From Saccharopolyspora soli (GTDB taxonomy: Bacteria > Actinomycetota > Actinomycetes > Mycobacteriales > Pseudonocardiaceae), in contig NZ_JALBWV010000017.1 in NCBI RefSeq assembly GCF_022678645.1, positions 1 through 64,000 of the forward strand: a stretch of DNA of 64,000 nt, written 5' to 3'. Under the pieces are notes generated by a model. That model made no database searches. It was not told the DNA's origin and saw nothing but the letters and a program-made list of their open reading frames with translations. The position numbers were made by a program, and so were the translations under genes. Shown piece after piece: positions 9,453 to 23,870 of this stretch; position 1 is the first letter of the stretch, and each line of letters begins with the position of its first letter.

Positions 9453-10808
9453 GTGGCGCGCAACGAGTTGACCGTGGAACGGCTGCGCGATCTGGTCGCC
9501 TCCGGCGAGGTGGACACCGTCGTCGTCGCGTTGACCGACATGCAGGGCAGGTTGCAGGGCAAGCGCTGTTCGGCCCGCTACTTCCTGGACGAAGTCCTCG
9601 ACCACGGCACCGAAGCCTGCAACTACTTGCTCGCGGTCGACGTCGATATGGCCACTGTGGACGGTTATGCGCTGACCTCGTGGGAGACCGGCTACGGCGA
9701 TTTCGTGCTGCGCCCGGACCTCGGCACCCTACGCCGGATTCCCTGGCAGGAAGCGACGGCGCTGGTGCTCTGCGATGTGCTGTGGCACTCGGGCGAGCCG
9801 GTTGCCCCGTCGCCGCGACAGGTGCTCCAGCGGCAGCTCGACCGGCTCGCGGAGCTGGGGCTCGCCGCGCACGTCGGGACCGAGTTGGAGTTCCTGGTCT
9901 TCCGCGACACCTACGAGCAGGCGTGGGACAAGCGTTACCACGAGCTCACCCCGATCAACCAGTACAACGTGGACTACTCGATCGCCGGTACCGGTCGGAT
10001 CGAGGGACTGCTGCGGCGGATCCGCAACGACATGACCGGTGCGGGGCTCTACGTCGAGTCGGCGAAAGGCGAGTGCAACTTCGGCCAGCACGAGATCGCC
10101 ATCCGCTACGCGGACGCGCTGACCAGCTGCGACAACCACGCGCTCTACAAGAACGGCGCCAAGGAGATCGCCGCGCAGCAGGGCGTGAGCCTGACCTTCA
10201 TGGCCAAGTACGACGCCAGGGAAGGCAATTCCTGCCACATCCACGTCAGCCTGCGCGACGCGGGCGGTTCGGCCATGCCCGGCGACGGCGAGCACGGGTT
10301 CTCGCCGGTCATGGCGCACTTCATCGCTGGCCAGCTGGCCTGCCTGCCGGAGTTGACCTACTTCCTGGCGCCGAACATCAACTCCTACAAGCGTTTCGCG
10401 CCGGGTAGTTTCGCGCCCACGGCGATCGCGTGGGGCCGGGACAACCGCACCTGCGCGCTGCGGGTCGTCGGACACGGCGAGAGCTTGCGGGTGGAGAACA
10501 GGGTGCCCGGCGGCGACGTCAACCCGTACCTGGCGGTGGCGGCGATACTCGCGGCCGGACTGCACGGGATTTCCGAGGAACTGCCGCTGGAGCCGATGCT
10601 GTCGGGCAACGCTTACGCCTCGGACAAGGACACGGTTCCCACCACGTTGCGGGATGCCGCGCTGTTGCTGGCGGAGAGCAAGGTCGCGGTCGAGGCGTTC
10701 GGCCAGGAGGTCGTCGACCACTACGTCAACGCGGCCCGCGTCGAGTTGGCCGCGTTCGACTCCGCGATCACCGACTGGGAGCGCATCCGTGGTTTCGAGC
10801 GTCTCTGA
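9453..10808 (+). CDS. Glutamine synthetase-like gamma-glutamyl-amine ligase
   Basis: GS-family ATP-dependent ligase of 451 aa. An N-terminal beta-grasp part (VVVALTDMQGRLQGKR) is followed by the catalytic domain with VGTELEFLVF, the ATP/metal motif KGECNFGQHEIAIRYADAL, the SCHIHVSL motif and NRTCALRV. It resembles PuuA/GlnA3/GlnA4-type enzymes that ligate glutamate to an amine rather than GlnA itself. GTG at 9453 has GGAAGGAG upstream. It heads an operon with an amidotransferase-fold hydrolase, an aldehyde dehydrogenase, an SDR and a FadR-like regulator. The neighbouring ethanolamine-type permease suggests gamma-glutamylethanolamide synthesis, as described for Streptomyces coelicolor GlnA4. 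Polyamines or other monoamines remain possible substrates. Confidence 0.88.
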   Translation: MARNELTVERLRDLVASGEVDTVVVALTDMQGRLQGKRCSARYFLDEVLDHGTEACNYLLAVDVDMATVDGYALTSWETGYGDFVLRPDLGTLRRIPWQEATALVLCDVLWHSGEPVAPSPRQVLQRQLDRLAELGLAAHVGTELEFLVFRDTYEQAWDKRYHELTPINQYNVDYSIAGTGRIEGLLRRIRNDMTGAGLYVESAKGECNFGQHEIAIRYADALTSCDNHALYKNGAKEIAAQQGVSLTFMAKYDAREGNSCHIHVSLRDAGGSAMPGDGEHGFSPVMAHFIAGQLACLPELTYFLAPNINSYKRFAPGSFAPTAIAWGRDNRTCALRVVGHGESLRVENRVPGGDVNPYLAVAAILAAGLHGISEELPLEPMLSGNAYASDKDTVPTTLRDAALLLAESKVAVEAFGQEVVDHYVNAARVELAAFDSAITDWERIRGFERL

Positions 10809-11511
10809 CCGTCCGCTCATCGGCATCAGCACCTACGTCGAGACGGCCAGCTGGGGGGTCTGGAACCGCGAAGCGGCACTCCTGCCCACGACCTACGTCA
10901 ACGCAGTGCACCGAAGTGGCGGGATTCCGGTTCTGCTACCGGTTCTTCCGGATTCGGCGGACCTGTCCTTGTCCAGTGTGGACGCGCTCGTGCTGGCAGG
11001 TGGCCCGGATGTGGACCCGGCCCGATACGGCAACCTGCCGCATGCGGAGCTCGGCCCAACGCAACCGCACCGGGACGACTGGGAGATCCGACTCCTGCAC
11101 GCCGCGCTCGAACACGATGTGCCCGTCCTCGGCGTCTGCCGGGGAGCGCAGATCATGAACGTGGCACTCGGCGGGACGCTGCACCAGCACCTGCCGGACC
11201 TGGTCGAACATCGCCAACACCAGCCATCGCCAAGGGTTTTCGGTCGCAACCAGGTGAAACTTCAGCCGGGCAGCCGGATCGCGTCGGCGCTCGGCGAGCA
11301 GGTCGAGGTCCCGTGTTACCACCACCAGGCGTTGGACGACATCGCAGCGGCACTCGACGTGGTGGGCCGGGCAGAGGACGGAACAGTCGAAGCGGTGGAG
11401 GTCACCGGGCGTCGTTTCGCCATCGGGGTGCAATGGCATCCAGAAGAAGACACAGCGGACGATCAGCTGTTCGGAGCGCTTGCCGCAGCAGCGAAGGAGG
11501 TACGCGGGTGA
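10789..11511 (+). CDS. Class I glutamine amidotransferase-like gamma-glutamyl hydrolase (PuuD-like)
   Basis: PuuD-like protein of 240 aa from peptidase family C26. It should hydrolyse the gamma-glutamyl bond of the oxidised intermediate and release glutamate. It has LVLAGGPDVDPARYG, the nucleophile Cys in LGVCRGAQIMNVALGG and the catalytic His-Glu in VQWHPEE. The GTG at 10789 has GGGAG at 10777-10781 and lies inside the end of the ligase gene, a 20-base overlap. Its stop overlaps the aldehyde dehydrogenase start by 4 bases. A longer frame upstream shadows the ligase gene and has no GATase sequence. Confidence 0.88.
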   Translation: MVSSVSDRPLIGISTYVETASWGVWNREAALLPTTYVNAVHRSGGIPVLLPVLPDSADLSLSSVDALVLAGGPDVDPARYGNLPHAELGPTQPHRDDWEIRLLHAALEHDVPVLGVCRGAQIMNVALGGTLHQHLPDLVEHRQHQPSPRVFGRNQVKLQPGSRIASALGEQVEVPCYHHQALDDIAAALDVVGRAEDGTVEAVEVTGRRFAIGVQWHPEEDTADDQLFGALAAAAKEVRG

Positions 11512-12878
11512 CCACCGCGCATGACGTCATCAACCCCGCGACCGAGCAGGTCGTGACGACCGTGCAGCTGTGCTCCGTCGAGGACACCGACGCGGCCATC
11601 GCGCTGGCGGTTCGCGCGCAGCGGTCGTGGAGCGCGCTCCCGCCTGCTGAGCGGGGGCGGTTGCTCCGGCGGTTCGCCGGAGCTGTTGACGCTGACATCG
11701 AGACACTTGCGCGGCTGGAGGTCAGCAACTCCGGACACACCATCGGCAACGCGCGCGGCGAGGCGGGCAACGTCCGGGATGTGCTGGAGTACTACGCCGC
11801 AGCACCGGATCGGTTGTTCGGCAAGCAGATTCCGGTGGCCGGTGGGGTGAACGTCACCTTCCAGGAGCCACTGGGCGTGGTCGGGGTGATCGTGCCCTGG
11901 AACTTCCCGATGCCCATCGCGGCCTGGGGCTTCGCCCCGGCCCTCGCGGCGGGCAACGCCGTCGTGCTCAAACCGGCTGAGCTGACGCCGCTCACCGCGA
12001 TCCGGCTCGGCGAACTCGCGTTGGAAGCCGGGCTTCCGGACGGACTGCTGCAGGTCCTGCCGGGCCGGGGATCGGTTGTCGGGGAACGTTTCGTCACCCA
12101 TCCCGACGTGCGCAAGGTGGTCTTCACCGGCTCCACCGCGGTCGGCCAGCGCATCATGGCCGGTTGCGCGAGCCAGGTGAAGCGCGTGACATTGGAACTG
12201 GGCGGCAAGAGCGCGAACATCGTCTTCGGTGACGCCGACCTGGAACGCGCAGCCGCGACGGCGCCGTACGGGGTTTTCGACAACGCCGGGCAGGACTGCT
12301 GTGCCCGTTCCCGGATCCTGGTGCAGCGCAGCGTTTACGACCGGTTCATGGAGCTGCTGGAACCGGCGGTGCGCGGCGTGGTCGTCGGCGACCCGAGCGA
12401 GGAGAAGACCGAGATGGGGCCGCTGATCTCGGCGCAGCACCAGGCCAAGGTCGCCGGATACGTGCCCGACGGCGCGCCGGTGGCGTTCCGCGGCGATGCG
12501 CCCTCGGGCACGGGATTCTGGTTCCCACCAACGGTTCTCACTACCGGACTGACCGATCCCGCGTTCACCGAGGAGATCTTCGGGCCGGTGGTGGCGGTGG
12601 TGCCCTTCGACGACGAGGCCGACGCGGTGCGCATCGCCAACGCCACCGAGTACGGCCTGTCCGGATCGATCTGGACCCGCGATGTCGCCCGCGCGCTCCG
12701 GGTGTCGCGGGCGGTCGAGGCCGGGAACCTGTCGGTCAACTCGCACTCGTCGGTGCGCTACAACACGCCGTTCGGTGGATTCAAGCAATCCGGGCTCGGC
12801 CGCGAGCTCGGACCGGACGCGGTCGACGCGTTCACCGAGACCAAGAACGTTTTCATCCCCACCACGGAGGACGCGTGA
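11508..12878 (+). CDS. NAD(P)-dependent aldehyde dehydrogenase
   Basis: ALDH-superfamily enzyme of 456 aa, slightly shorter than the usual 480-500. The cofactor region shows VPWNFPMPIAAW and the FTGSTAVGQ motif; catalytic Glu lies in LELGGKSANIVF and catalytic Cys in FDNAGQDCCARSR. It probably oxidises the gamma-glutamyl-aldehyde formed from the glutamylated amine or amino alcohol to the acid, as PuuC does in the Puu pathway. GTG at 11508 overlaps the previous stop (GTGA) with AAGGAGG just before it. The SDR gene follows 39 bases later. Confidence 0.93.
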   Translation: MTTAHDVINPATEQVVTTVQLCSVEDTDAAIALAVRAQRSWSALPPAERGRLLRRFAGAVDADIETLARLEVSNSGHTIGNARGEAGNVRDVLEYYAAAPDRLFGKQIPVAGGVNVTFQEPLGVVGVIVPWNFPMPIAAWGFAPALAAGNAVVLKPAELTPLTAIRLGELALEAGLPDGLLQVLPGRGSVVGERFVTHPDVRKVVFTGSTAVGQRIMAGCASQVKRVTLELGGKSANIVFGDADLERAAATAPYGVFDNAGQDCCARSRILVQRSVYDRFMELLEPAVRGVVVGDPSEEKTEMGPLISAQHQAKVAGYVPDGAPVAFRGDAPSGTGFWFPPTVLTTGLTDPAFTEEIFGPVVAVVPFDDEADAVRIANATEYGLSGSIWTRDVARALRVSRAVEAGNLSVNSHSSVRYNTPFGGFKQSGLGRELGPDAVDAFTETKNVFIPTTEDA

Positions 12879-12917
12879 GTCCAGGTGCGGGTGTCCCGCG
12901 AGAAACAGGAGTGAGCA

Positions 12918-13685
12918 ATGCCGGAACGTCTGCAGGACCGCGTCGCCGTCATCACCGGCGGTGCCAGCGGGATCGGCCTGGCCACCGCTCGCCGGTTCAC
13001 CGCCGAGGGAGCCAAGGTAGTCATCGCCGACCTCGACGCGGACACCGGCAAGCGCGCCGCTGATGAGGTGGGCGGACTGTTCGTGCCGACCGACGTAACC
13101 GACGCCGACGCGGTCGCGCAACTGTTCGCCACCGTCGATGCTGAGTTCGGTTCGATCGACATCGCCTTCAACAACGCGGGCATCTCACCGCCGGATGATG
13201 ACTCCATCCTGGACACCGGGATCGAAGCCTGGCGGAAGGTGCAGGAGGTCAACCTCACCTCGGTCTACCTGTGCTGCAAGCACGTCCTGCCGTACATGCG
13301 ACGGCAGGGCAGGGGTTCGATCATCAACACCGCGTCGTTCGTGGCGGTGATGGGCGCGGCCACCTCGCAGATCTCCTACACCGCGAGCAAGGGCGGTGTG
13401 CTGGCGATGTCCCGCGAACTCGGCGTGCAGTTCGCGCGGGAAGGCATCCGGGTGAACGCGCTGTGTCCCGGCCCGGTGAACACCCCGTTGTTGCAGGAGC
13501 TGTTCGCCAAGGATCCGGAGCGCGCCGAGCGGCGGCTGGTGCACGTCCCGATGGGGCGTTTCGCCGAAGCGAGCGAGATCGCGGCGGCGGTCGCCTTCCT
13601 GGCCAGCGACGACGCATCGTTCATCACCGCGTCGCAGTTCCTGGTGGACGGCGGGATCTCGGGCGCGTACGTCACGCCGCTGTGA
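12918..13685 (+). CDS. Short-chain dehydrogenase/reductase
   Basis: Classical SDR of 255 aa. The Rossmann motif is TGGASGIG; NNAG is at about residue 83; the catalytic Ser-Tyr-Lys is visible as NTAS, then SYTASKGG. It ends with FLVDGGISGAYV, typical of the family. ATG at 12918 has a GGAGTGAG-type RBS. In the operon it could oxidise a hydroxyl group such as the alcohol of a gamma-glutamyl-ethanolamide, feeding the aldehyde dehydrogenase. That order of reactions is inference. Annotation tools will probably call it a 3-oxoacyl-ACP reductase by default. Confidence 0.9.
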   Translation: MPERLQDRVAVITGGASGIGLATARRFTAEGAKVVIADLDADTGKRAADEVGGLFVPTDVTDADAVAQLFATVDAEFGSIDIAFNNAGISPPDDDSILDTGIEAWRKVQEVNLTSVYLCCKHVLPYMRRQGRGSIINTASFVAVMGAATSQISYTASKGGVLAMSRELGVQFAREGIRVNALCPGPVNTPLLQELFAKDPERAERRLVHVPMGRFAEASEIAAAVAFLASDDASFITASQFLVDGGISGAYVTPL

Positions 13686-13731
13686 TACTGCCGCGGCGGC
13701 CGATACCGAAGTTGAGCTGGGGGAGAGGGAC

Positions 13732-14478
13732 GTGACCAGCCAGAACGAGACGCTGGTGCTGCAGAACCGGGCTAGCGAAGCGTTGTTCCGCGCGGTGCGC
13801 ACGGGCAACGCGTTCGAGGAGACTGTGGAGCGCCTGTTGCAGGCCATCCGGCTCGGCGTGGTGGCGCCGGGGGAGCGGTTGCCCGCGGAGCGCGAGCTGG
13901 CGACTCGGCTCAACGTCAGCCGGGTGACGCTGCGGGAGGCGATCCGGGCGTTGCAGGAGTCCGGTTACGTCGAGTCCCGCCGAGGCCGCTACGGCGGCAC
14001 GTTCGTCAACGTCGAACCGGCCCGACCGCACCGCAAAGGGCCGCGCCGCATCGCTCGGGAGATGGGCGTCGATCTGCACGACGCCCTGACGCACCGGCAC
14101 GTGCTGGAGGTCGGCGCGGCCGAACAGGCCGCCGTCCGCGAGCTCGGCGAAGCCGAACGAGCACACCTGGTGTCGCGGCTGTCCGAAGCGGGCACCGCGG
14201 AGCTGCACAACTACCGGCGGATGGACTCGCGGCTGCACCTGGCGATCGCCGAGCTCACCGGCTCGGCGTCGCTGACCTCGGCGGTCGCCGACGTGCGGAT
14301 GCGGCTCAACGAACTGCTCGACGCGATTCCCCTGCTGGAGCGAAACATCGCGCACTCCAACGAACAGCACGAGGAAGTGGTGCGCGCCATCCTCGACGGT
14401 GACCCGACCGCTGCCCGCCGGTCGATGGCCGAACACCTGGAAGGCACGGCGTCGCTGCTACGCGGCTTCCTGTCGTGA
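13732..14478 (+). CDS. FadR-subfamily GntR regulator
   Basis: GntR-family regulator of 248 aa. The N-terminal winged helix (about residues 28-95) contains LPAERELATRLNVSRVTLRE, and the C-terminal all-helical FCD domain (about 105-240) has the expected metal/ligand His positions (MDSRLHLAIAE and later HSNEQHEEVVRAI). GTG at 13732 follows GGGGGAGAGGG. As the last gene of the amine operon it likely represses it and the divergent permease, and ATTGGTATG sites at 9249 and 9415 are candidate operators. Its stop codon lies inside the palindrome 14472-14517. Confidence 0.9.
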   Translation: MTSQNETLVLQNRASEALFRAVRTGNAFEETVERLLQAIRLGVVAPGERLPAERELATRLNVSRVTLREAIRALQESGYVESRRGRYGGTFVNVEPARPHRKGPRRIAREMGVDLHDALTHRHVLEVGAAEQAAVRELGEAERAHLVSRLSEAGTAELHNYRRMDSRLHLAIAELTGSASLTSAVADVRMRLNELLDAIPLLERNIAHSNEQHEEVVRAILDGDPTAARRSMAEHLEGTASLLRGFLS

Positions 14479-14517
14479 GTGCGTAACCGGGCTCCAACCC
14501 GGCTGCGCACTCACGAC
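14472..14517. repeat. Dispersed palindrome, family A (copy 1)
   Basis: A hairpin with outer arms GTCGTGAGTGC and GCACTCACGAC and a variable inner stem (ACCGGG...CCCGGC). The FadR-like stop codon is part of the left arm. Five related copies occur at 19608, 30265, 31717, 42246 and 48312. Confidence 0.8.
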
Positions 14518-14533
14518 CCCGTTCAGGGGACGA

Positions 14534-14580
14534 GTGAAGGGCACCTTTTACCAAGTAAGTTGGTAAGAGGTGCCCTTCAC
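14534..14580. repeat. Dispersed palindrome, family B (copy 1)
   Basis: A 47-bp near-perfect hairpin with arms GTGAAGGGCACCTTTTACCA and its complement and a core ACCAAGTAAGTTGGT. It may terminate the upstream operon. Related copies occur at 37020 and 51622. Confidence 0.8.
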
Positions 14581-14613
14581 CTCGCGTTTCGGCAGGTGCT
14601 GAACAGGGGAACT

Positions 14614-15360
14614 ATGCTTCTTCGGGTGGCGGAATACCGGATCGACGATCTCGCTCGGGCCGCGGGCACGACCGTGCGCAACGTGCGCGTCTACCAGGAC
14701 CGGGAGTTGTTGCCGCCGCCTCGTCGGGAGGGGCGGACGGCTATCTACTCCGACGCGCACTTGGTGCGGCTTCGGCTGATCATCAACATGCTGGAGCGCG
14801 GCTACGCATTCGCCCAGATCAAGGAGATGATCTCGGCCTGGGAATCCGGCCGCAGCCTCGGCGAAGTGCTCGGGCTGGAAGAGGTCGTCGGGGCTTCCTG
14901 GGCGGAAGAGGCACCGCGCGCCGTCACGGTCGCCGAGTTGCGCGAGAAGTTCGGCAAGCAGTTCGCCCCGGCCAACATCAAGCGATCGATCGAGCTGGGC
15001 TTGCTGGAGCGGCGCGGTCGCGGATTCGTCGCACCCAGCCCGCAACTGCTCGACGCGGGTGCCGAGCTGGTCGGCCTCGGGGTGCCGCTGAGCGCGGTGC
15101 TCGACCTGGCCGAGCAGTTGCAGCAGGACATCGACCACGTGGCCGGGATCCTGGTGGAGGTGGTGCGCGAGCACGTGCTGACCCGCCCGGTGCCCACCGA
15201 TGACGAGATCCCGTACTACTCCGATGTGATGCAACGGCTTCGGCCATTGGTGATGTCCGCGCTCAACGCCGCCGCGGCCCGCTCGGCCGAGCGGGTGATC
15301 CCCGAAGTGCTCGGCGACCGCCTGGTCGAATTGCTGGAGCGCACCAACCAGCACTCCTGA
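14614..15360 (+). CDS. MerR-family transcriptional regulator
   Basis: MerR-type regulator of 248 aa. The N-terminal winged helix (YRIDDLARAAGTTVRNVRVY, then DRELLPPPRREGRTAIYSDA) is followed by a helical region and a C-terminal domain of about 150 residues without the metal-binding cysteines of the metal-sensing subgroup. ATG at 14614 follows AGGGGA by about 5 bases; a GTG 12 bases downstream is an alternative. It is flanked by the palindromes 14472-14580 and by the Cys leader region, so it is probably monocistronic. The target is unknown. Confidence 0.88.
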   Translation: MLLRVAEYRIDDLARAAGTTVRNVRVYQDRELLPPPRREGRTAIYSDAHLVRLRLIINMLERGYAFAQIKEMISAWESGRSLGEVLGLEEVVGASWAEEAPRAVTVAELREKFGKQFAPANIKRSIELGLLERRGRGFVAPSPQLLDAGAELVGLGVPLSAVLDLAEQLQQDIDHVAGILVEVVREHVLTRPVPTDDEIPYYSDVMQRLRPLVMSALNAAAARSAERVIPEVLGDRLVELLERTNQHS

Positions 15361-15452
15361 CCCGCCGAGGTTCGTCCGATGTGGACTTTCCGGGTTTCTC
15401 AGCGATTGGGACGTTGTTCCCCGACCCCGGCTCGTCCGTTTATCCTCGGCCC

Positions 15453-15527
15453 GTGATCTCGCCCAACACGTTCGTCGAACGACGCGCCATCGATCTGATG
15501 CGCGTCACGTGTTGCTCATGTCGTTGA
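15453..15527 (+). CDS. Cysteine-rich leader peptide of the organosulfur operon
   Basis: A 24-codon frame (GTG start) ends with ...RRAIDLMRVTCCSCR before TGA. The pattern of a basic run, an (V/I)DL(x)R core and terminal Cys codons matches the small leader peptides found upstream of sulfur-assimilation genes in Actinobacteria. Four cysteine-rich positions (Cys-Cys-Ser-Cys) in the last five codons would sense charged tRNA-Cys. TATCCT at 15441-15446 lies about 6 bases before the GTG, so the transcript may be leaderless. The following 100 bases hold GC-rich inverted segments (CCCGGCCCTTCGG, CCCGATATTCGGG), candidate attenuator parts before the SsuA-like gene at 15627. Confidence 0.72.
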   Translation: MISPNTFVERRAIDLMRVTCCSCR

Positions 15528-15626
15528 GCTGACGGCACTTTCACCTCCCGGCCCTTCGGCCTCTCAACCCGATATTCGGGTCTCCTTCGTCATGCGCCTG
15601 AGAACGCGCCCAGAAGTAGGTAACAG

Positions 15627-16736
15627 ATGTCCTCATCGCGCCTGGCCGGGCGCATTCGCCTGGCCCGACAACGAAAATCCACCACCACGACCATCGCGTC
15701 GCTGATCGCGCTGCTCGCACTCGCCGGTTGCGGCTCCGGCGGCGAAGCGGGCGGGCTGGCCGCTGATGCGCCGCTGCCCACCACCATCCCACCGGAGACC
15801 AAGCTGGTCGTCGCGGACCAGCAGGAACGGCTGCAGAGCCTGTTCCGAGCCTCCGGGGAGTTCGACAAGATGCCGGTCAAGCCCGAGTTCGCCAACTTCA
15901 CCGGTGGCCCCGAGGTGCTGGAGGCGTTCCGCTCCGAGGCCGCGGACGTCGCCATCGTCGGCGATACCCCGCCGATCCACGCCCAAGCTTCCGGGGAGGA
16001 CGTGCCGATCATCGCGGCGTACCAGGTCGATCCCAATTCGACCCGCTTCGCGGTGGCCCCCGGCGCGAACGTGCGCACCCTGTCGGACCTGCGGGGCAAG
16101 AAGATCGCCTACGCCGAAGGCACCGCCCAGCAGACGTCCGTGCTGCGCGCGCTGGAAAAAGCCGGTTTGACCACGAACGACGTGCAGCTCGTCAGGTTGC
16201 AGTTGGCCGAGTTCAACGACGCGGTGCGCACCGGCGCGGTCGATGTCGCACCGCTCAACGAACCCCGGCTGACCCGATTCCTCGCCCAGACCGGCGGCAC
16301 GGGCACCACCCTGCCGATCGCCGACACCGACGGCACGAGCACCGGGCTCAGCTTCCTCTACACGCGGCGCGCGGCGTTGGAAGATCCCGCCAAAGCCGCA
16401 GCCATCCGGGCGTTCGTCCAGCATTTCGTCGCAGCGAGGCAGTGGGCGGCCACCCATCCCAACGAGTGGATCGACTTCTACTACGTCAAGAACCAGGGCG
16501 TGACACGTGCCGACGGCGAGCGGATCGTGGCGTCCGAAGACGAGGTCGTCTTCCCCAGGCTCGACGAATCGCTGATCGCCACCCAGCAGCACACCATCGA
16601 CCTGCTGCTGGCCGACGGTGGCCTGCCCAGGCCGCTGAACGCCCACGACCACTTCGACCGGCGATTCGACGCCGTGATCGAGGACGCGGTGCAGCGGGTC
16701 GGCGCGAGTCGAGCGGAGATCCGCCATGGCGGCTGA
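15627..16736 (+). CDS. SsuA-type ABC transporter substrate-binding lipoprotein
   Basis: Substrate-binding protein of 369 aa for aliphatic sulfonates or other organosulfur compounds. It has a basic N-terminus, a hydrophobic helix and lipobox LALAGC (Cys about residue 36), so it is an anchored lipoprotein. The periplasmic-binding fold shows VAIVGDTPPIHA and the DLRGKKIAYAEGTAQQ motif, typical of the NMT1/SsuA/TauA group. ATG at 15627 lies about 100 bases after the Cys leader peptide. It overlaps the permease gene by 11 bases. The Cys leader plus the monooxygenase downstream support a sulfur rather than nitrate or pyrimidine substrate. Confidence 0.88.
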   Translation: MSSSRLAGRIRLARQRKSTTTTIASLIALLALAGCGSGGEAGGLAADAPLPTTIPPETKLVVADQQERLQSLFRASGEFDKMPVKPEFANFTGGPEVLEAFRSEAADVAIVGDTPPIHAQASGEDVPIIAAYQVDPNSTRFAVAPGANVRTLSDLRGKKIAYAEGTAQQTSVLRALEKAGLTTNDVQLVRLQLAEFNDAVRTGAVDVAPLNEPRLTRFLAQTGGTGTTLPIADTDGTSTGLSFLYTRRAALEDPAKAAAIRAFVQHFVAARQWAATHPNEWIDFYYVKNQGVTRADGERIVASEDEVVFPRLDESLIATQQHTIDLLLADGGLPRPLNAHDHFDRRFDAVIEDAVQRVGASRAEIRHGG

Positions 16737-17514
16737 GCGCAGACGGCTGGGGCCGGGCCGCAAGATCCCGTTCTTCCGGCTGCTCGGTCCGATCGTGCTG
16801 CTGCTGGCGTGGCAGCTGACCTCGAGTGCGGGCCTGCTGTCGCCGCACACGCTCACGCCGCCCGCGCAGGTCCTGTCGACCGCCGGGGAACTGATCGCGG
16901 ATGGTCGGCTGCAATCGCACCTGCTCACGTCGTTGTGGCGGGCTTCGGTGTCGTTGCTGCTGGGCGTGTTCGTCGGGCTGGTGCTGGCGCTGGTGGCCGG
17001 GCTCAGCCGCTTCGGGGAAGCGCTGGTCGACGGGCCCGTGCAGATCAAGCGGGCGATTCCGACGCTGGCGCTGATCCCGCTGGCGATCATCTGGTTCGGC
17101 ATCGGCGAAGGCATGAAGATCACGGTGGTGACGCTGGCCGTGCTGGTGCCGATCTACCTCAACACGCACGCCGCGCTGCGCGGCGTCGACGGACGGTTCG
17201 TGGAACTGGCCGAGACCGTGCGGCTGAGCCGCTGGCAGTTCGTGCGCCGGATCGCGATTCCAGGTTCGCTGCCGGGTTTCTTCACCGGGCTGCGCATGGC
17301 GGTGACGGTTTCCTGGCTGGCGTTGGTGGTGGTGGAGCAGATCAACGCGACCAGCGGCATCGGCTCGCTGATGACGCAGGCCCGCAACTACGCGCAGACC
17401 GACATCATCGTGGTGGGCCTGGTCATCTACGCCTTGTTCGGGCTGTTGTCGGACAGCGTCGTGCGATTCGCGGAAGGGCGGGTGCTGTCATGGCGCCGAA
17501 CACTGGACAGCTGA
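16726..17514 (+). CDS. SsuC-type ABC transporter permease
   Basis: BPD-type permease of 262 aa with about six membrane helices. The EAA loop is visible as LAETVRLSRWQFVRRIAIPGSLPGF in parts (AETVRLS, then IAIPGSLPGF). The N-terminus is basic and short (MAAERRRLGPGRKIPF). ATG at 16726 overlaps the binding-protein gene by 11 bases, and its end overlaps the ATPase gene by 25 bases. It forms the channel of the organosulfur importer. Confidence 0.9.
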   Translation: MAAERRRLGPGRKIPFFRLLGPIVLLLAWQLTSSAGLLSPHTLTPPAQVLSTAGELIADGRLQSHLLTSLWRASVSLLLGVFVGLVLALVAGLSRFGEALVDGPVQIKRAIPTLALIPLAIIWFGIGEGMKITVVTLAVLVPIYLNTHAALRGVDGRFVELAETVRLSRWQFVRRIAIPGSLPGFFTGLRMAVTVSWLALVVVEQINATSGIGSLMTQARNYAQTDIIVVGLVIYALFGLLSDSVVRFAEGRVLSWRRTLDS

Positions 17515-18266
17515 CCGAGCGACCCGAGAAGATCCATAGTGGACACCCTGCGGTCAAGGTGCGCAGACTGGTGCGCCGATTCGGCGACCGGGTGGTGCTC
17601 GACGGCGTGGATCTCGACATCGGGCGCGGCGAGTTCGTCGCTCTGCTGGGGCGCAGTGGCTCCGGCAAGAGCACGTTGTTGCGCGCGCTCGCCGAACTCG
17701 ACCACGACGTGACCGGCAGCGGACTGGCCACGGTGCCGGACAAGCGTGCGGTCGTATTCCAGGATTCCCGGCTGTTGCCGTGGGCCAGGGTGCTCGACAA
17801 CGTCGTCCTCGGCCTGTCCGGTGCCGACGCGGCCGAGCGCGGCCGGGCCGTGCTGCGCGAGGTCGGGCTCGCCGGGCGGGAGCGGTCCTGGCCAAACGCG
17901 CTCTCCGGTGGCGAGCAGCAGCGGGCCGCGCTGGCCCGTTCCCTCGTGCGGGAACCCGAACTCCTGCTCGCGGACGAACCCTTCGGCGCGCTCGATGCGC
18001 TGACCCGGATTCGGATGCATCGGCTGCTCCGGGAGTTGTGCGCGCGGCACCGGCCCGCGGTGCTGCTGGTGACGCACGACGTCGACGAGGCGATCACGCT
18101 CGCCGACCGGGTTCTGGTGCTGGACGGCGGAAAGAACGCCGTCAACCGGGAAATCGACCTGCCAGTGCCGAGATCGCACCGCGACGCGGGATTCATCGAC
18201 CACCGGGATGCCCTGCTCGCCGCGCTCGGCGTCACCGAACACGATGCGGAGGAAACCAGTGAGTGA
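17490..18266 (+). CDS. SsuB-type ABC transporter ATPase
   Basis: ATP-binding subunit of 258 aa. Walker A is GRSGSGKST, the Q-loop lies in VVFQDSRLLPWA, the signature is LSGGEQQRAALARSL, Walker B is LLLADEPFGALDAL and the H-loop is LLVTHDVDEA. ATG at 17490 is chosen; the frame remains open far upstream only as a shadow of the permease gene. It overlaps the monooxygenase start by 8 bases. It powers the SsuA/SsuC-type importer. Confidence 0.92.
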   Translation: MAPNTGQLTERPEKIHSGHPAVKVRRLVRRFGDRVVLDGVDLDIGRGEFVALLGRSGSGKSTLLRALAELDHDVTGSGLATVPDKRAVVFQDSRLLPWARVLDNVVLGLSGADAAERGRAVLREVGLAGRERSWPNALSGGEQQRAALARSLVREPELLLADEPFGALDALTRIRMHRLLRELCARHRPAVLLVTHDVDEAITLADRVLVLDGGKNAVNREIDLPVPRSHRDAGFIDHRDALLAALGVTEHDAEETSE

Positions 18267-19596
18267 CCGGAAACTGCACCTCAACGCGTTCCTGATGAGC
18301 GTAGGGCACCACGAGGCGGCGTGGCGGCTGCCGGAGAGCGATCCGGCGGCGAACACCAGCCTGGACCACTACGTGAAGCTGGCGAGGATCGCCGAACGCG
18401 GCACCTTCGACTCGGTGTTCCTCGCCGATGCACCCGCGCTGCGCGTGGACGTCGGCCAGCGCCCGGCCACCACGCTGGAGCCGACCGTGCTGTTGACCGC
18501 GCTGGCGACCGCCACCGAACGGATCGGGTTGATCGCCACCGCGTCCACGACCTACAACGAGCCCTACAACCTGGCCCGCCGGTTCGCTTCGCTGGACCAC
18601 ATCAGCGGCGGCCGGGCGGGCTGGAACATCGTCACCAACGCGGTAGTGGAAGCGGCGCGCAACTTCAACCTGGACGAGCTGCCTTCGCACCGCGCCCGCT
18701 ACCGACGCGCCCAGGAATTCGTCGAAGTCTCCCGGAAGCTCTGGGACAGCTGGGAAGACGACGCCGAAGTGGGCGACAAGTCCGGGGTCTGGGCGGACGA
18801 GCGCAAGGTGCACGCCATCGATCATCGGGGCGAGCACTTCACGGTTCGCGGTCCGCTGAACGTGCCCCGCCCGCCGCAGGGCCATCCGTTGCTGGTGCAA
18901 GCCGGTTCTTCCGAAGACGGCAAGGCGCTGGCCGCGCGCTTCGCCGAAGCCGTGTTCACCGCGCAGCAGACCCTGGACGAGGGCAAGGCGTTCTACGCCG
19001 ATCTCAAGGAACGCGCGCGGCAGTTCGGTCGTGCCGCGGAGACGATCAAGATCCTGCCGGGCATCGTGCCGGTCGTCGGCAGCACCGAAGCCGAGGCCCG
19101 GAAACTGGAGGCCGACCTGCGCGACCACATCGTGCACCGCTACGCGTTGCAGCGGCTGTCCGGCACGTTGGGCATCACGCTGACCGAGGACGACCTCGAC
19201 CGGCGGCTTCCGGCGGAACTGCCCGGCGAGGAGCAGATCGAGACCGCCAAGAGCCGCTACACGCTGGTGGTCGACTTGGCCAGGAGGGAGGACCTGACGG
19301 TGCGGGAGATCATCCACCGCCTCGGCGGCGGCCGGGGTCACCGCACGTTCACCGGCACGCCCGAGCAGATCGCCGACACCATCGAGAAGTGGTTCACCAG
19401 CGGCGCCGCCGACGGGTTCAACGTGATGCCCCCGGTGCTCCCGTCAGGATTGGAGTCCTTTGTGGACGGCGTGGTGCCAATCCTCCGCCAACGCGGCCTG
19501 TTCCGCGCCGAGTACACCGGCAGGACGCTGCGCGACCACTACGGCCTGAGCCGCCCTGCCAACCAGTACGCCGAATCCCACAAGGCCGTGGTCTGA
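18259..19596 (+). CDS. NtaA/SnaA/DszA-type FMN-dependent monooxygenase
   Basis: Luciferase-like flavin monooxygenase of 445 aa, the usual length for the NtaA/SnaA/DszA branch. Signatures include LHLNAFLMSVGHHEAAWR, FDSVFLADAP, SGGRAGWNIVTN and the PLLVQAGSSEDG motif. Such enzymes use FMNH2 from a separate reductase to cleave C-S or C-N bonds, for example in sulfones and alkanesulfonates. The position behind ssuACB-like genes and a Cys leader suggests it desulfonates the imported compound. GTG at 18259 overlaps the ATPase stop by 8 bases. No flavin reductase gene is seen nearby. It is followed by family A palindrome 19608-19653. Confidence 0.9.
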   Translation: MSDRKLHLNAFLMSVGHHEAAWRLPESDPAANTSLDHYVKLARIAERGTFDSVFLADAPALRVDVGQRPATTLEPTVLLTALATATERIGLIATASTTYNEPYNLARRFASLDHISGGRAGWNIVTNAVVEAARNFNLDELPSHRARYRRAQEFVEVSRKLWDSWEDDAEVGDKSGVWADERKVHAIDHRGEHFTVRGPLNVPRPPQGHPLLVQAGSSEDGKALAARFAEAVFTAQQTLDEGKAFYADLKERARQFGRAAETIKILPGIVPVVGSTEAEARKLEADLRDHIVHRYALQRLSGTLGITLTEDDLDRRLPAELPGEEQIETAKSRYTLVVDLARREDLTVREIIHRLGGGRGHRTFTGTPEQIADTIEKWFTSGAADGFNVMPPVLPSGLESFVDGVVPILRQRGLFRAEYTGRTLRDHYGLSRPANQYAESHKAVV

Positions 19597-19607
19597 GCCC
19601 GACTCCG

Positions 19608-19653
19608 GTCGTGAGTGGTCGTGGTCGTCCTAGCGGCCATCGCCACTCACGAC
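19608..19653. repeat. Dispersed palindrome, family A (copy 2)
   Basis: Outer arms GTCGTGAGTGG and CCACTCACGAC flank an imperfect inner part containing CTAGCGGCCATCG. It sits between convergent genes (monooxygenase and RpiR regulator), where a bidirectional terminator would be useful. Confidence 0.8.
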
Positions 19654-19677
19654 TACTGGCACGCGGGCATGGCCGAG

Positions 19678-20580
19678 TCACAGCTCTGGTAGGCGGCTGA
19701 TGTCCAGGTTGGTTCCGGCGATTTCGGTTCGCAGGGCGTTGAGCCGCTGGTAGTGCTCGACCGCTGCGGTGCGTTCGGTGGCGACCAGTTCCAGGACCAG
19801 CGCGTGCAGGATGGTCAGCGGCGCGATCAGTTCGTTCGCCGCGCCTTCGGTGGAGTCCGGCAGTGGCAGCACGATGTCGGCCTCGGTTTCTCCGGCTTCG
19901 TCGATCGCTTCGGTCAGCAGCACGCTGCTCGCGCCGGTTCGGTGTGCGTGGTCGAGGACGATGCCGATTTCGCGGAAGACCCGCAGCGGCGCCACCACGA
20001 CCACTGCGTGCGAGGCGTGCAGCCGCAGAAGTTCGTCGGCGAGGCGGAAGCCCGTCGCGGTCCACGCATCCGCTGCCTTGCCCGCGCGTCGCAGGCTCAG
20101 CGCGAGGTGGTCGGCGACGGCTGCGCTGGGGCCGATGCCGTAGGTCCAGACGTGCTCGGCGTCGCGCAACGCCGCGACCGTGCGCGACCACTCGACGCTG
20201 TCGATGAGCGCGGGCACTTCGCTGAGCAGTGCCAGTCCGGCGTCGATCACCGGTTGCAGCACCCCGTGCTCGGCCGTGCGCAGCCGTCGCACCCGGTCGT
20301 CTAGCACCTGTGCGGGATCGCGGCGGCGGGCCAGGTGGTCGACCAGGCTGCGCTTGAGGTCGCCCAGCCCTTCGAAGCCGAGCTTGCGCGCCGTGCGGAT
20401 CACCGTGGCGTCGCTGGTGCCAGTGGCCTCGCCGAGCTTGGCGGCCGAGGAGATCGCCGCCTCCTCGGGGTGGCGTTGCAGGTAGTCGGCGACCGCACGC
20501 TCACCGCTGGCCAGCTTTCCGGCGCTGTTTCTGATTCGTTGCCCCAACGACTCGCTACGTGAAGTGTTCACGTCGTCCAT
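19678..20580 (-). CDS. RpiR-family regulator with SIS domain
   Basis: Regulator of 300 aa. The N-terminal HTH (about residues 14-90; SAAKLGEATGTSDATVIRTA, RKLGFEGLGDLK) is followed by a SIS domain (about 130-270; VWTYGIGPSAAVADHLA), which in this family binds phosphosugars or other small ligands. ATG at 20580 has GAGGGG upstream. It is divergent from the SolA-like oxidase and hydantoinase operon, which is its likely target. RpiR members next to hydantoinase-like genes need not sense sugars; the ligand is unknown. Confidence 0.9.
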   Translation of the reverse strand: MDDVNTSRSESLGQRIRNSAGKLASGERAVADYLQRHPEEAAISSAAKLGEATGTSDATVIRTARKLGFEGLGDLKRSLVDHLARRRDPAQVLDDRVRRLRTAEHGVLQPVIDAGLALLSEVPALIDSVEWSRTVAALRDAEHVWTYGIGPSAAVADHLALSLRRAGKAADAWTATGFRLADELLRLHASHAVVVVAPLRVFREIGIVLDHAHRTGASSVLLTEAIDEAGETEADIVLPLPDSTEGAANELIAPLTILHALVLELVATERTAAVEHYQRLNALRTEIAGTNLDISRLPEL

Positions 20581-20646
20581 TGTCCCCTCGCGAAGTGAAT
20601 GCTACGTTCCTGGTCTGTTGGAGCCACCGCTTCCTGCGGAGACGCG

Positions 20647-21789
20647 ATGAAACCACTTCAGCAGTCGAGTATCGCCGTGATCGGTGTGGGGACGATGGGC
20701 AGCCAGGTCCTCCACCGGCTCGCGGCCGACGGGGTGCGAGCCACCGGGTTCGAGCAGTTCGACGTCGGCCACCAGCGCGGCGCCGCTGGCGGCGAGACCC
20801 GCATCTTCCGGGTCGCCTACAAGGAAGGCGGCGGTTACGTGCCGCTGCTGCGCGAGGCGCGGGCCGCCTGGCTGGAACTCGGCGCGCAGACCGGTGTCGA
20901 ACTCCTCGAACCCTGCGGTGCCCTGACCATCGGCTCGGCCGAGGACCCCGACGTGCGCACCGTCGTGGACGTGACGCGGGAGTGGGGGCTCGACGTCGAG
21001 CAGCTCGACCACCGCGAGGCCGCTCGGCGGTTCCCCCAGCACCGGCTCTTCGGCGACGACTTGGTGCTCCTGGACCGGCAGGGCGGCCTGCTGCACCCGC
21101 AGCGCGCCGTGGCCGAAACCGCTTTGCTCGCGGAGAAAGCTGGGGCCCGCATCCATCCCAGCACCACTGTGGTCGATGTCGTCGATCGCGGCACCGGGGT
21201 GGCCGTGCACTACCGCCAGGGCGACGAGATCCAGGTCGCGGAGTACGACCAGGCGGTGGTGTGCACCGGGCCGTGGATCACCCGCAGCGTTCCGGCGATC
21301 GCCCGCGACGTGCAGATCCGCCGGGCGGTGCTGTGCTGGTTCGAGGCCGGTCCGAATTGGGTGCCCGAGCGCTTCCCGGTGGGCATTCGGCGCAGCGGCG
21401 GGGAGAACGTCTACTCCTTCTTCCCGGACGTCGGAGGTGGCGTGAAGATCAACCTGCACGTCGAGAAGTCCGTTGTGGACGATCCCGACGCGCTTGATCC
21501 GGTGGTGGCGCAGGAGTACGTCGCCCGCGTGTCCGCGGCCGTGTCGCGCGGCCTGACCGGTCTGCCGCCGAAACCCGCTGCCGTGCGCACCTTCATGGAG
21601 GGTTACACCGCGGACAACCACGGCATCATCGGTCGCGACCCGCAGCGGCCGAACGTGCTGGTGATGGGCGGGTTCTCCGGTCACGGCTTCAAGCTGGCAC
21701 CGGTGTTCGCCAGGGCGGCGGTGGACCTGCTGGGCACCGGCCGCACCGACGTGCCGATCGACCGCCTGTCGCTGTCCCGGCTGCACTGA
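20647..21789 (+). CDS. SolA/sarcosine oxidase-family FAD-dependent amine oxidase
   Basis: DAO-family flavoprotein of 380 aa related to monomeric sarcosine oxidase and N-methyltryptophan oxidase. The FAD-binding motif is VIGVGTMGSQV, with FEQFDVGHQRGAA after it and the C-terminal GGFSGHGFKLAP. In monomeric sarcosine oxidase the FAD is covalently bound to a Cys shortly before a (T)xDxHxI motif; here the aligned segment reads RTFMEGYTADNHGIIG, with Phe where Cys is expected, so covalent attachment looks unlikely. It should oxidise an amino acid or N-methyl amine, giving H2O2. ATG at 20647 has GGAG nearby. It starts an operon with hydantoinase A/B and a transporter. Confidence 0.87.
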   Translation: MKPLQQSSIAVIGVGTMGSQVLHRLAADGVRATGFEQFDVGHQRGAAGGETRIFRVAYKEGGGYVPLLREARAAWLELGAQTGVELLEPCGALTIGSAEDPDVRTVVDVTREWGLDVEQLDHREAARRFPQHRLFGDDLVLLDRQGGLLHPQRAVAETALLAEKAGARIHPSTTVVDVVDRGTGVAVHYRQGDEIQVAEYDQAVVCTGPWITRSVPAIARDVQIRRAVLCWFEAGPNWVPERFPVGIRRSGGENVYSFFPDVGGGVKINLHVEKSVVDDPDALDPVVAQEYVARVSAAVSRGLTGLPPKPAAVRTFMEGYTADNHGIIGRDPQRPNVLVMGGFSGHGFKLAPVFARAAVDLLGTGRTDVPIDRLSLSRLH

Positions 21790-21806
21790 CCATCGAAGGG
21801 CTCACC

Positions 21807-23870
21807 ATGCTGCGCATCGGGATCGACGTCGGCGGCACGTTCACCGACGTGACCGCGCTGGACACGACCACCGGCCGCTTCCACATCCACAAGCTCCCGT
21901 CCACCACCGACGACCAGTCCGTGGCCGTCGCCGAAGGGGTCCGCGCGGTGCTGCGACAGGCCGGGGCCGACCCCGGCGCGGTCGGCTACCTCGGCCACGG
22001 CACGACGGTGGCGACCAACACCGTGCTGGAGTCCAACGGTGCTCGTACCGCGCTGGTGACCACCGCTGGCCTGCGCGATGTCCTGGAGATCGGGCGGCAG
22101 CAGCGTCCCGACCTCTACGACCTGGACGCCGACAAGGCGCCGTCGCTGGTTCCCCGATCACTGGTGCACGCCGTGGTGGAGCGGATGTCCGCCGAGGGCA
22201 AGGTGCTCGCACCGCTGGACAGCGACGACCTGGCGGCCGTGCTGGAAGACGTGCGGGCGGCCGGGCCGGAAGCGGTTGCGGTCTGCTTCCTGCACAGCTA
22301 CCGCAATGCCAGCCACGAAGTGGAGGTCGCCGATGCGCTGCGGGCCGCGCTGCCCTCGGCGTACGTGTGCGCGTCCGCCGAGATCGCACCGGTGTTCCGC
22401 GAGTTCGAGCGGTTTTCCACCACGGTGGTCAACGCCTACGTCGGGCCGCGGATCAACCGGTACATGTCACGACTCGCCGAGCGGATCCGGGCCACCGGCG
22501 TGCCGGTCGAGCCGAAGGTGATCGGGTCCAGCGGCGGCATGATGTCGCTGGAGTCGGTGGGCCGCTACCCGGTGACCACCCTGCTGTCCGGGCCGTCTGC
22601 TGGAGTCGTCGCCGCGACGCACGTGGCGGCGCAAGCCGGTTTCCGCGACCTGATCACCTTCGACATGGGTGGCACGAGCACCGATGTGTGCCTGGTGCGC
22701 GACGGGCGGGCGCTGGTGTCGTCGCAGCGGCGCATCAACGATCGGCCGGTTCGCACGCCATCGCTGGACATCCACACCGTCGGTGCCGGTGGCGGCAGCA
22801 TCGCGCGGGTGGACCCCGGCGGCGCGCTGGAGGTCGGCCCCAGCAGCGCCGGTTCGCAGCCAGGTCCAGCCGCCTACGGGCGCGGCGGGACGGAGCCGAC
22901 CGTCACCGACGCGAACGTCCTACGTGGACGGTTGAACCCGGAGTACATCCTGGGTGGCGCCCTGGAAGTGGACCTTTCGGCGGCGGAGCGCGCCGTGGAC
23001 GGCACCGCACGGGCGATGCGCACCGACCTGGCCACCGCCGCGCGGGGGATCGGGCGGATCGCGGCGGTCAACATGGCCGGTGCGGTGCGCAAGGTTTCCG
23101 TGGAAGCCGGGGAGGATCCGCGCAGCTGCGTGCTGGTCGCCTTCGGCGGTGCGGGTCCGCTGCACGCCGTCGAGGTAGCGCGCGAGGTCGGCATGAGCAC
23201 CGTGCTCGTCCCGCCGAATCCGGGCACGCTGTGCGCGCTCGGCCTGCTGGTCACCGACATCCGCACCGAGTTCACCAAAGCCGTGCTGGCCGAAGCCGTC
23301 GACAGCGACCTGGACAAGCTCAACGAAGTGCTGCACGAGGTGCACGGTTCGGCCCGCTCCTGGCTGGCCGCCGAAGCACCATCCGATGTGGACACTTCGA
23401 TCACCGGGGTGGCGAGGATGCGCTACGCCAAGCAGAACTTCGAGCTGTCCGTGCCGTTGCCGCAGCGGGTGATCGATGCCGCGCGGTTCGACGCCGATGC
23501 GGTGGCCGAGATCGTGGCGGCTTTCCACCGGCAGCACACCAAGAGCTACGGATTCGCCCATCGCGACGCCCCGGTGCGGATCGTCGAGGTGCAGCTGACC
23601 GCGGCCGCCGCGGTGGAAAAACCTGGCATGCCCGTGATCACCGAAGGCGACGACCCGGCCACCGCGCGGATCGGCGAACGCACCGTCGACTTCGACGAGA
23701 CCGGTCCGGTTCCCACCCCGATCTACGACCGGGCGGGTCTGGGGGCGGGCACCGTGCTGCCCGGCCCAGCCATCGTCGAACAGCTCGACACCACCACGGT
23801 CATCACCCCGTCGGCCACCGCGCGCGTCGACCGCTACGGCAACCTCGTCCTCGAACTGGAGCCGCGATGA
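21807..23870 (+). CDS. hyuA: Hydantoinase/oxoprolinase subunit A
   Basis: HyuA-type subunit of 687 aa. The N-terminal actin-like ATPase part starts with IGIDVGGTFTDVTALD, and the hydantoinase A domain includes GGMMSLESVGRYPVTTLLSGPSA in separate motifs (GGMMS, LLSGPSAG) and FDMGGTSTDVCLV. With HyuB it forms an ATP-dependent N-methylhydantoinase, oxoprolinase or acetone-carboxylase-like enzyme that opens cyclic amides. ATG at 21807 follows the oxidase by 17 bases, and its stop overlaps hyuB by 4. The substrate is unknown; the SolA-like oxidase upstream points to an N-methyl amino acid product such as sarcosine. Confidence 0.9.
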   Translation: MLRIGIDVGGTFTDVTALDTTTGRFHIHKLPSTTDDQSVAVAEGVRAVLRQAGADPGAVGYLGHGTTVATNTVLESNGARTALVTTAGLRDVLEIGRQQRPDLYDLDADKAPSLVPRSLVHAVVERMSAEGKVLAPLDSDDLAAVLEDVRAAGPEAVAVCFLHSYRNASHEVEVADALRAALPSAYVCASAEIAPVFREFERFSTTVVNAYVGPRINRYMSRLAERIRATGVPVEPKVIGSSGGMMSLESVGRYPVTTLLSGPSAGVVAATHVAAQAGFRDLITFDMGGTSTDVCLVRDGRALVSSQRRINDRPVRTPSLDIHTVGAGGGSIARVDPGGALEVGPSSAGSQPGPAAYGRGGTEPTVTDANVLRGRLNPEYILGGALEVDLSAAERAVDGTARAMRTDLATAARGIGRIAAVNMAGAVRKVSVEAGEDPRSCVLVAFGGAGPLHAVEVAREVGMSTVLVPPNPGTLCALGLLVTDIRTEFTKAVLAEAVDSDLDKLNEVLHEVHGSARSWLAAEAPSDVDTSITGVARMRYAKQNFELSVPLPQRVIDAARFDADAVAEIVAAFHRQHTKSYGFAHRDAPVRIVEVQLTAAAAVEKPGMPVITEGDDPATARIGERTVDFDETGPVPTPIYDRAGLGAGTVLPGPAIVEQLDTTTVITPSATARVDRYGNLVLELEPR

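Follow-up and report, generated by a model that had tools for sequence, protein, structure and literature searches.

A candidate cysteine-sensing upstream open reading frame ahead of an organosulfur operon in Saccharopolyspora soli

The window analyzed here is a 64,000-nucleotide stretch of Saccharopolyspora soli DNA (part of contig 88 in a genome of 9.35 Mb), in which a short upstream open reading frame (uORF) ending in Cys codons precedes genes for an SsuA/C/B-like importer and a monooxygenase. Our main reading, which we hold at a probability of roughly 0.8, is that this uORF is leaderless, senses cysteine by way of the ribosome translating it, and governs the operon. A shortage of charged tRNA-Cys would stall the ribosome on the Cys codons, chiefly on UGU-C at 15519, and the conserved peptide core in the exit tunnel would probably prolong the stall; the operon would then be expressed and sulfonate-type sulfur scavenged. 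With enough cysteine, the ribosome would finish the leader and leave at 15527, and the operon would be kept down. We infer the stall, the direction of its effect and the cysteine response, the last of which is supported by the anatomy of the leader, its conservation and its sulfur-gene context. The points in favor of the explanation are the ORF itself, its conservation, a fixed core and a fixed codon, the sulfur context and a single tRNA-Cys gene.

Comparison and precedent give good support to the sensor half of this reading, a ribosome that stalls on Cys codons within a leaderless uORF. For the output half, our first choice is Rho termination at the C-rich spacer behind the leader, held at somewhat less than even odds, and unmasking of the ribosome-binding site is ranked second. 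A first-pass annotation had proposed cysteine-dependent attenuation of an organosulfur operon; a Cys leader ahead of an importer and a monooxygenase is indeed present and kept in relatives, but the hairpins that the annotation offered as attenuator stems found no support in that role. The analysis names cysteine supply as the likely signal for a Saccharopolyspora organosulfur importer and monooxygenase.

The leader and its operon

The features of the locus are collected in Table 1. The Cys codons of the leader are TGT at 15510, TGC at 15513 and TGT at 15519, in agreement with the earlier description of a 24-codon frame with terminal Cys codons, and the core that had been called VDL-like reads IDLMRV and is followed by the tail CCSCR. 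Since the hexamer TATCCT ends 6 nt ahead of the GTG, the leader looks leaderless, with an mRNA that would begin at the start codon, as far as the sequence can tell. A sigma-70 scan of 15300-15700 detected no full promoter with a -35 element. Among the 125 leaders of the profile set described below, TANNNT ends 4-9 nt before an in-frame start in 34 (shuffle mean 11.1, maximum 20), at 6 or 7 nt in 30 of these, and the strict pattern is absent in 91. The stem within the leader coding sequence can form in all four members of the window's clade, whose sequences are too alike for covariation.

The proteins that the first-pass annotation had predicted downstream were both recovered. The SsuA-type binding protein, which begins after a 99-nt spacer (15528-15626), matches TIGR01728 with 141.5 bits, below the cut-off of 163.5, and the monooxygenase that had been called DszA/NtaA-type scores above its cut-off as a member of the NtaA/DmoA family. 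The true start of the monooxygenase probably lies further in than 18208.

Table 1. Features of the leader locus, in coordinates of the window
Feature	Position	Strand	Remarks
MerR-family regulator 5' of leader	14479..15360	+	kept near leader in 3/3 relatives examined (tblastn in L002, L381, L382)
-10-like hexamer TATCCT	15441..15446	+	last base 6 nt 5' of leader GTG
Leader ORF, 24 codons + stop	15453..15527	+	start GTG 15453, stop TGA 15525-15527; encodes VISPNTFVERRAIDLMRVTCCSCR
Stem within leader coding sequence	15465..15513	+	outer arms 15465-15471 / 15507-15513, inner arms GACGCGC/GCGCGTC
Two extra Cys codons, TGT TGC	15510..15515	+	at -3/-2 from fixed Cys
Fixed Cys codon TGT + next base C (TGTC)	15519..15522	+	proposed stall codon; TGT in 186/190 family leaders
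C-rich, G-poor spacer	15528..15607	+	C 40%, G 22.5%; possible Rho loading region
Two short hairpins, GGCC/GGCC and ACCCGA/TCGGGT	15550..15581	+	no T tract
Weak Shine-Dalgarno-like AGTAGGT of binding-protein gene	15615..15621	+	AGGT common to 4 aligned clade members
SsuA-type lipoprotein substrate-binding protein	15627..16736	+	PF09084 E 4.9e-16; TIGR01728 E 3.2e-41
SsuC-like ABC permease	16726..17514	+	PF00528; NF008470 E 2.9e-61, below cut-off
SsuB-like ABC ATPase	17514..18266	+	PF00005; NF008420 E 1.6e-70, below cut-off
NtaA/DmoA-family FMN-dependent monooxygenase	18208..19596	+	TIGR03860 564.1 bits, cut-off 279.7

Conservation of the leader in Saccharopolyspora and beyond

A whole-genome peptide search found the leader at E <= 1.8e-9 in 4 of 22 Saccharopolyspora genomes, that of S. 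soli included. Three of the 22, again including S. soli, encode an ortholog of the binding protein with at least 79% identity, and the leader is present in all three (S. soli, G351 and G352/S. hirsuta), ahead of the orthologous operon. The S. hirsuta copy (locus L002) is near-identical, and at the binding-protein locus S. hirsuta is also the closest relative with a name. In G351 and S. hirsuta, genes for permease, ATPase and monooxygenase come after the leader; behind the leader in G352 are the permease and ATPase, at which point the available stretch ends. The fourth genome, G357 (L382, G357:C14:112000-120500), has kept the leader together with the MerR and monooxygenase genes, the leader stop lying about 640 nt before the monooxygenase, and no match to the binding protein, permease or ATPase was found at the locus. 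Further on in G357 lie radical-SAM and FMN-dehydrogenase-like ORFs, which by eye resemble mycofactocin genes. When the four clade members are aligned, the leader DNA is almost unchanged and the spacer has diverged.

Among further binding-protein matches in the genus, 17 loci (binding proteins of about 30-35% identity) were examined, and 13 of these carry a leader with the same core, all with TGT. The first-pass annotation had suggested a search upstream of homologous operons, and the outcome depends on how widely one looks. The leader is present in every ortholog-bearing genome of the genus, but a survey of 67 loci encoding relatives of the binding protein, one of which (L067) has only 20 nt upstream, found a same-core leader in L002 alone, which is the sole Saccharopolyspora locus there; a Cys-pair criterion and a core criterion both gave 1/67. 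Thus, the leader does not travel with the binding-protein family at large. The annotation would have counted a lack of peptide conservation in relatives as refutation; within the genus, the peptide is conserved.

These data bear on one alternative, namely that the ORF occurs by chance in a 5' untranslated region of the usual kind. Twenty-four codons alone are unremarkable, and the presence of a leader at only 1 of the 67 wider loci speaks for such an account. However, the ORF is conserved in four genomes with diverged spacers, an NCBI model matches it at E 9.4e-5, and the same core recurs before other genes of the genome, several of them sulfur genes. We therefore give this alternative almost no credence. 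That the window leader is a real ORF, beyond chance, is confirmed by the model match, its recurrence in 4 of 22 genus genomes and the near-identical S. hirsuta copy.

A family of leaders ahead of sulfur genes

Three NCBIfam models match the window leader: NF042934, a 'putative leader peptide' of the cis_reg_atten kind (21.9 bits, E 9.4e-5, positions 2-19 of 19; cut-off 27; 19.8 bits in the whole-genome search), NF042933 (Ms5788A; 18.9 bits, E 9.2e-4, positions 10-24 of 27; cut-off 45) and NF042936 (Ms4527A; 18.1 bits, E 1.5e-3, positions 4-20 of 21; cut-off 45). All three scores are below the curated cut-offs, so these models would not name the window leader. Judged by its sequence, it is a divergent relative of NF042934 and of the mycobacterial Cys leaders, and it adds to a class of a kind already known a member that falls below the NCBI cut-offs. 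An Rfam search of 13000-20000 returned six weak matches, none at gathering score.

A profile built from ten leaders matched 211 of 296 sampled genomes of the class at E <= 0.1, with up to 19 matches per genome; these figures include chance matches on the order of 0.1 per genome. The counts are built on the top-of-list places together with own-genome and same-family loci. In the S. soli genome, the profile gives 13 places and NF042934 adds more, for 18 places with the core in all, at 17 of which the fixed Cys codon is TGT; two of the 18 are on near-duplicate contigs, and four weak matches are left out. Two near-identical leaders on different contigs (L121/L122; G000:C102:69275 and G000:C100:14730) have different first downstream ORFs, one of them an FMN reductase, which may reflect duplication or an assembly split. 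Other routes to the family performed poorly: a DNA pattern for the core gave 3 matches in the S. soli genome and 2 for the reversed control, for which reason patterns were replaced by profiles, and a single-sequence peptide search, with hits in 11 of 390 genomes at E <= 0.05, was too insensitive.

In S. soli, several of the leaders stand before sulfur genes; by Pfam, the products encoded after four of them are nitrite/sulfite reductase, FMN reductase, TauE and cysteine dioxygenase. Across the family, 121 downstream proteins were found, of which 84 were sent to Pfam and 37 dropped for poor distance or GC3, with gene starts that are mechanical guesses. Among these 84 are nitrite/sulfite reductase (12), Cys/Met PLP enzyme (7), FMN reductase (5), luciferase-like monooxygenase (5), NMT1 binding protein (5), sulfatase (4), TauE (3), PAPS reductase (2) and cysteine dioxygenase (2), as well as proteins with no obvious link to sulfur: family-5 binding protein (6), OmpR-type regulator domain (6) and carbonic anhydrase (4). 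A short-chain dehydrogenase, with no obvious tie to cysteine, stands behind 3 of the 84.

A conserved peptide core at a fixed distance from a UGU codon

The family core, R..H[VI]DL.RV, lies at a fixed distance from a fixed Cys, designated C0. In 125 of 126 distinct leaders, the exception being L179, a single spacing separates [VIL]-10 D-9 from C0, and in the profile set R-13, H-11, L-8, R-6 and V-5 are near fixed. The profile set was chosen by a peptide profile, which selects for amino-acid conservation by construction, and for this reason we argue peptide conservation from a second set anchored on nitrite/sulfite reductase genes. This anchor set was drawn from 112 nitrite/sulfite-reductase hits, for 110 of which the upstream region was fetched. 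A Cys-tailed sense ORF with at least three of four key residues is present in 89 of the 110 regions; the antisense strand gives 9, and ten shuffles give 0 each. In this set, too, the choice of ORFs favors the four scoring positions, but it does not favor the others. Outside the scoring positions, L-16 is found in 88 of 89 leaders, H-11 in 88 of 89 and V or I-10 in all 89, and the R-13 codon is almost free in its third base, where all four nucleotides occur. Fixed residues at unscored positions together with free third bases at R-13 argue for selection on the peptide.

The fixed Cys is conserved at the level of its codon as well. Pooling of the two sets gives 190 distinct leaders, in which it is TGT in 186; these leaders are mutually related, and a Fisher p value computed on 125 overstates their independence. 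In the long ORFs of the same loci, TGT accounts for 199 of 1386 Cys codons. Nor is a T-ending bias general within the leaders, given that the additional Cys codons are TGT in 30 of 97 and TGC in 67, and other two-fold codons end in T at 25% (Asp-9) and 11% (His-11). The base after the fixed Cys codon is C in 148, T in 28, A in 13 and G in 1 of the 190; 40% of codons in the long ORFs begin with G. The S. soli genome has one tRNA-Cys, with anticodon GCA, among 49 tRNA matches, so UGU must be wobble-read. Wobble reading and a 3' pyrimidine can both slow decoding. A near-invariant synonymous codon, with freer third bases elsewhere in the core, marks selection on decoding with unusual clarity. We found no description of a near-invariant UGU at the fixed Cys in the open-licence literature searched, although Canestrari 2020 may state it; the sole comparable codon statement met with, in the accessible text of PMC8632094, concerns a UGC-dominant alphaproteobacterial cysS leader.

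Two further codon observations belong here. The leader ahead of the nitrite/sulfite reductase of S. soli itself (G000:C116:62275, L120/L271) has UGC at the fixed Cys, as the sole exception among the 89 anchor leaders and one of the four TGC exceptions among the 190. A second codon bias, AGC at Ser-3 in 74 of 78 anchor-set leaders, may be due to descent or to decoding.

The constant D-9 to C0 spacing and the near-fixed R-13, H-11, V/I-10 and R-6, with almost free third bases at R-13, would also suit a metabolite-sensing arrest peptide in the manner of TnaC for Trp, in which the Cys residue rather than the supply of Cys-tRNA acts. However, a near-invariant synonymous UGU points to decoding, which residue sensing would not need, and optional extra Cys codons fit codon hunger. 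We regard a pure arrest peptide as unlikely, although the conserved core does raise the question of whether an attenuator that responds to an amino acid may at the same time be an arrest peptide.

The spacer and the output of the leader

Hairpin-forming segments do follow the leader (15550-15561 and 15567-15581), as the first-pass annotation said. The fold of the 188-nt region, however, is only a modest improvement on those of its shuffles (z -1.93; equalled by 7 of 200), and nothing that resembles a terminator was found in 15300-15700. This weighs against classical attenuation by an intrinsic terminator hairpin past the leader, the role the annotation had in mind. The short hairpins are compatible with it, as are the inverted repeats seen by eye in the spacers of two clades and the folding of anchor-set spacers relative to dinucleotide shuffles (mean z -1.0, with 17 of 87 below -2; -0.4 for control gaps), from which some spacer structure may matter. 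However, a hairpin with a T tract occurs in only 2 of 87 anchor-set relatives, spacers are poorly conserved between clades, and the available part of Seliverstov 2005 (PMC1262725) reports no conserved terminator-capable hairpins for Cys leaders. A local structure scan along the spacers yielded no position that stood out. We consider an intrinsic terminator improbable, somewhat more so than the arrest peptide. Two of the 89 anchor leaders are left out of the terminator count, and 16 of 89 out of the composition lines (no usable Shine-Dalgarno, start or spacer).

Translation attenuation is a more serious competitor, and one that we regard as a real possibility while ranking it behind Rho. Here, when cysteine is ample, the leader RNA would fold onto the ribosome-binding site, and a stalled ribosome would break the fold. 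The 188-nt fold does pair ACCU past the leader with AGGU before the start, and a mycobacterial relative, the Cys leader of Mycobacterium smegmatis, is said to work in this manner by Shine-Dalgarno unmasking. The available text of PMC13236596 cites Canestrari 2020 as translation attenuation. Leader segments also favor their own ribosome-binding region slightly over permuted ones in a duplex test of 84 leaders (z -2.3 to -3.3; 5 of 89 left out), an effect that is small, may follow GC content and is not counted as strong; the non-Cys core segment has the same small preference. In the same test, pairing of the Cys region with spacer positions +20 to +60 is weaker (z +2.5), and no part of the test is counted as strong evidence. 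Against this account, a longer fold of the window loses the ACCU pairing, and for the first 30 nt of the spacer permuted ribosome-binding regions are better partners than their own (z +3.4). Moreover, in folding the Shine-Dalgarno is no less accessible than in shuffles and does not gain from the stall: among 73 relatives (16 of 89 left out, with no usable Shine-Dalgarno, start or spacer), accessibility is 0.312 free and 0.295 stalled, as compared with 0.308 and 0.316 for shuffles, and the mean gain on stalling is -0.017 (shuffled, +0.007). The window and its three relatives have no consistent gain either; with the stall at C23, none of the four exceeds 0.007. That a stall does not free the Shine-Dalgarno in the folding models, together with the terminator counts, leaves the hairpins unsupported as attenuator stems.

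One clade from a single genus (f20 g68; L275, L276, L279, L281, L284, L286, L290, L293 and L295) has spacers that deserve separate mention. Most carry two tandem TGCGC..GCGCA-like inverted repeats that could, by eye, swap partners, and most have a small GTCC-CGAA-GGAC-like hairpin over the Shine-Dalgarno, also by eye.

The preferred output, Rho termination at the spacer, takes its support from base composition. The 80 nt past the leader stop have more C than G in 88 of the 89 leaders of the anchor set (mean skew 0.228) and in 115 of 124 profile-set leaders (mean 0.213). The skew jumps to 0.38 and 0.29 in the first 20 nt of the two sets, the only stretch that rises well above the rest. Upstream 20-nt bins are mostly between -0.07 and 0.11, with one anchor-set bin, -80 to -60, at 0.18. 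In 59 control intergenic gaps, which are mostly from other genera and based on rough gene calls, the mean skew is -0.003 and 27 are positive. The 21 anchor regions in which no leader was found are also C-leaning (17 positive, mean 0.085), and in the profile set the downstream skew decays but remains at about 0.10-0.16 to +320 nt, so the C excess is not confined to the spacer. The short hairpins in the window spacer do not favor Rho.

Comparison with known systems

In the tnaC leader of E. coli, the stalled ribosome shields a Rho site just past the leader stop. A stall on the window leader would, in the Rho model, shield a Rho site in the same position, but in tnaC it is free Trp that is sensed, by an arrest peptide.

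Closer in kind are the polycysteine leaderless sORFs of mycobacteria (Shell 2015, PMC4633059), which, in the accessible part of that paper, are leaderless uORFs, as the window leader appears to be, and are likewise Cys-tailed and placed before sulfur genes, nirA included. They probably share the core of the window leader, since members of the anchor set from the same order have the tails CTCCCL and CSCSCL behind it. The window leader differs in its SsuA/C/B and NtaA/DmoA operon, its CCSCR tail and its GTG start; most sampled relatives in the class, unlike the mycobacterial sORFs, have one Cys and no run, and sequestration of the ribosome-binding site was not reproduced by folding here. The Cys leaders predicted for Mycobacterium, Propionibacterium and Bifidobacterium in the available text of Seliverstov 2005 (PMC1262725) also have runs of Cys codons near the stop and no conserved terminator, and Rho was proposed there for the mycobacterial ones as a weak prediction. 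In the present work, by comparison, the C over G bias is measured and leaders with a single Cys are the majority. The uORFC-8-2 motif ahead of cysS in Rhodobacterales, as given in the available text of PMC8632094, has tandem Cys codons and is a presumed Cys-tRNA sensor as well, but its codons are predominantly UGC, an intrinsic terminator stands behind it, and both phylum and gene are different.

A single Cys between D-9 and the stop is found in 118 of the 190 pooled leaders, which indicates that the Cys cluster emphasized by the first-pass annotation is not a common feature of the family. It is conceivable that leaders of this kind across Actinomycetes are one-codon, peptide-assisted sensors and that the 'polycysteine' leaders are not codon counters, a proposal which we put forward only tentatively. 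The sensor would be a single UGU, wobble-read by the sole tRNA-Cys, only very rarely followed by G and set at a constant distance from R..H[VI]DL.RV. The nascent core would keep the ribosome prone to stalling, extra Cys codons (in the window and in mycobacteria) would sharpen the response, and the stalled ribosome would cover the C-rich loading region right past the leader stop or bar Rho from it. The window leader has three Cys codons and so does not itself need a one-codon sensor. If true, the proposal would describe a switch in which hungry-codon attenuation and an arrest peptide are combined, and up to about 19 uses per genome would amount to a sulfur regulon without a regulatory protein.

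Genes flanking the operon in the window, at 9453-13685 and 20599-25531, resemble amine or amino-acid catabolism by eye. The types recognized are glutamine synthetase-like, aldehyde dehydrogenase-like, FAD oxidase and hydantoinase-like, of which the FAD oxidase alone was searched.
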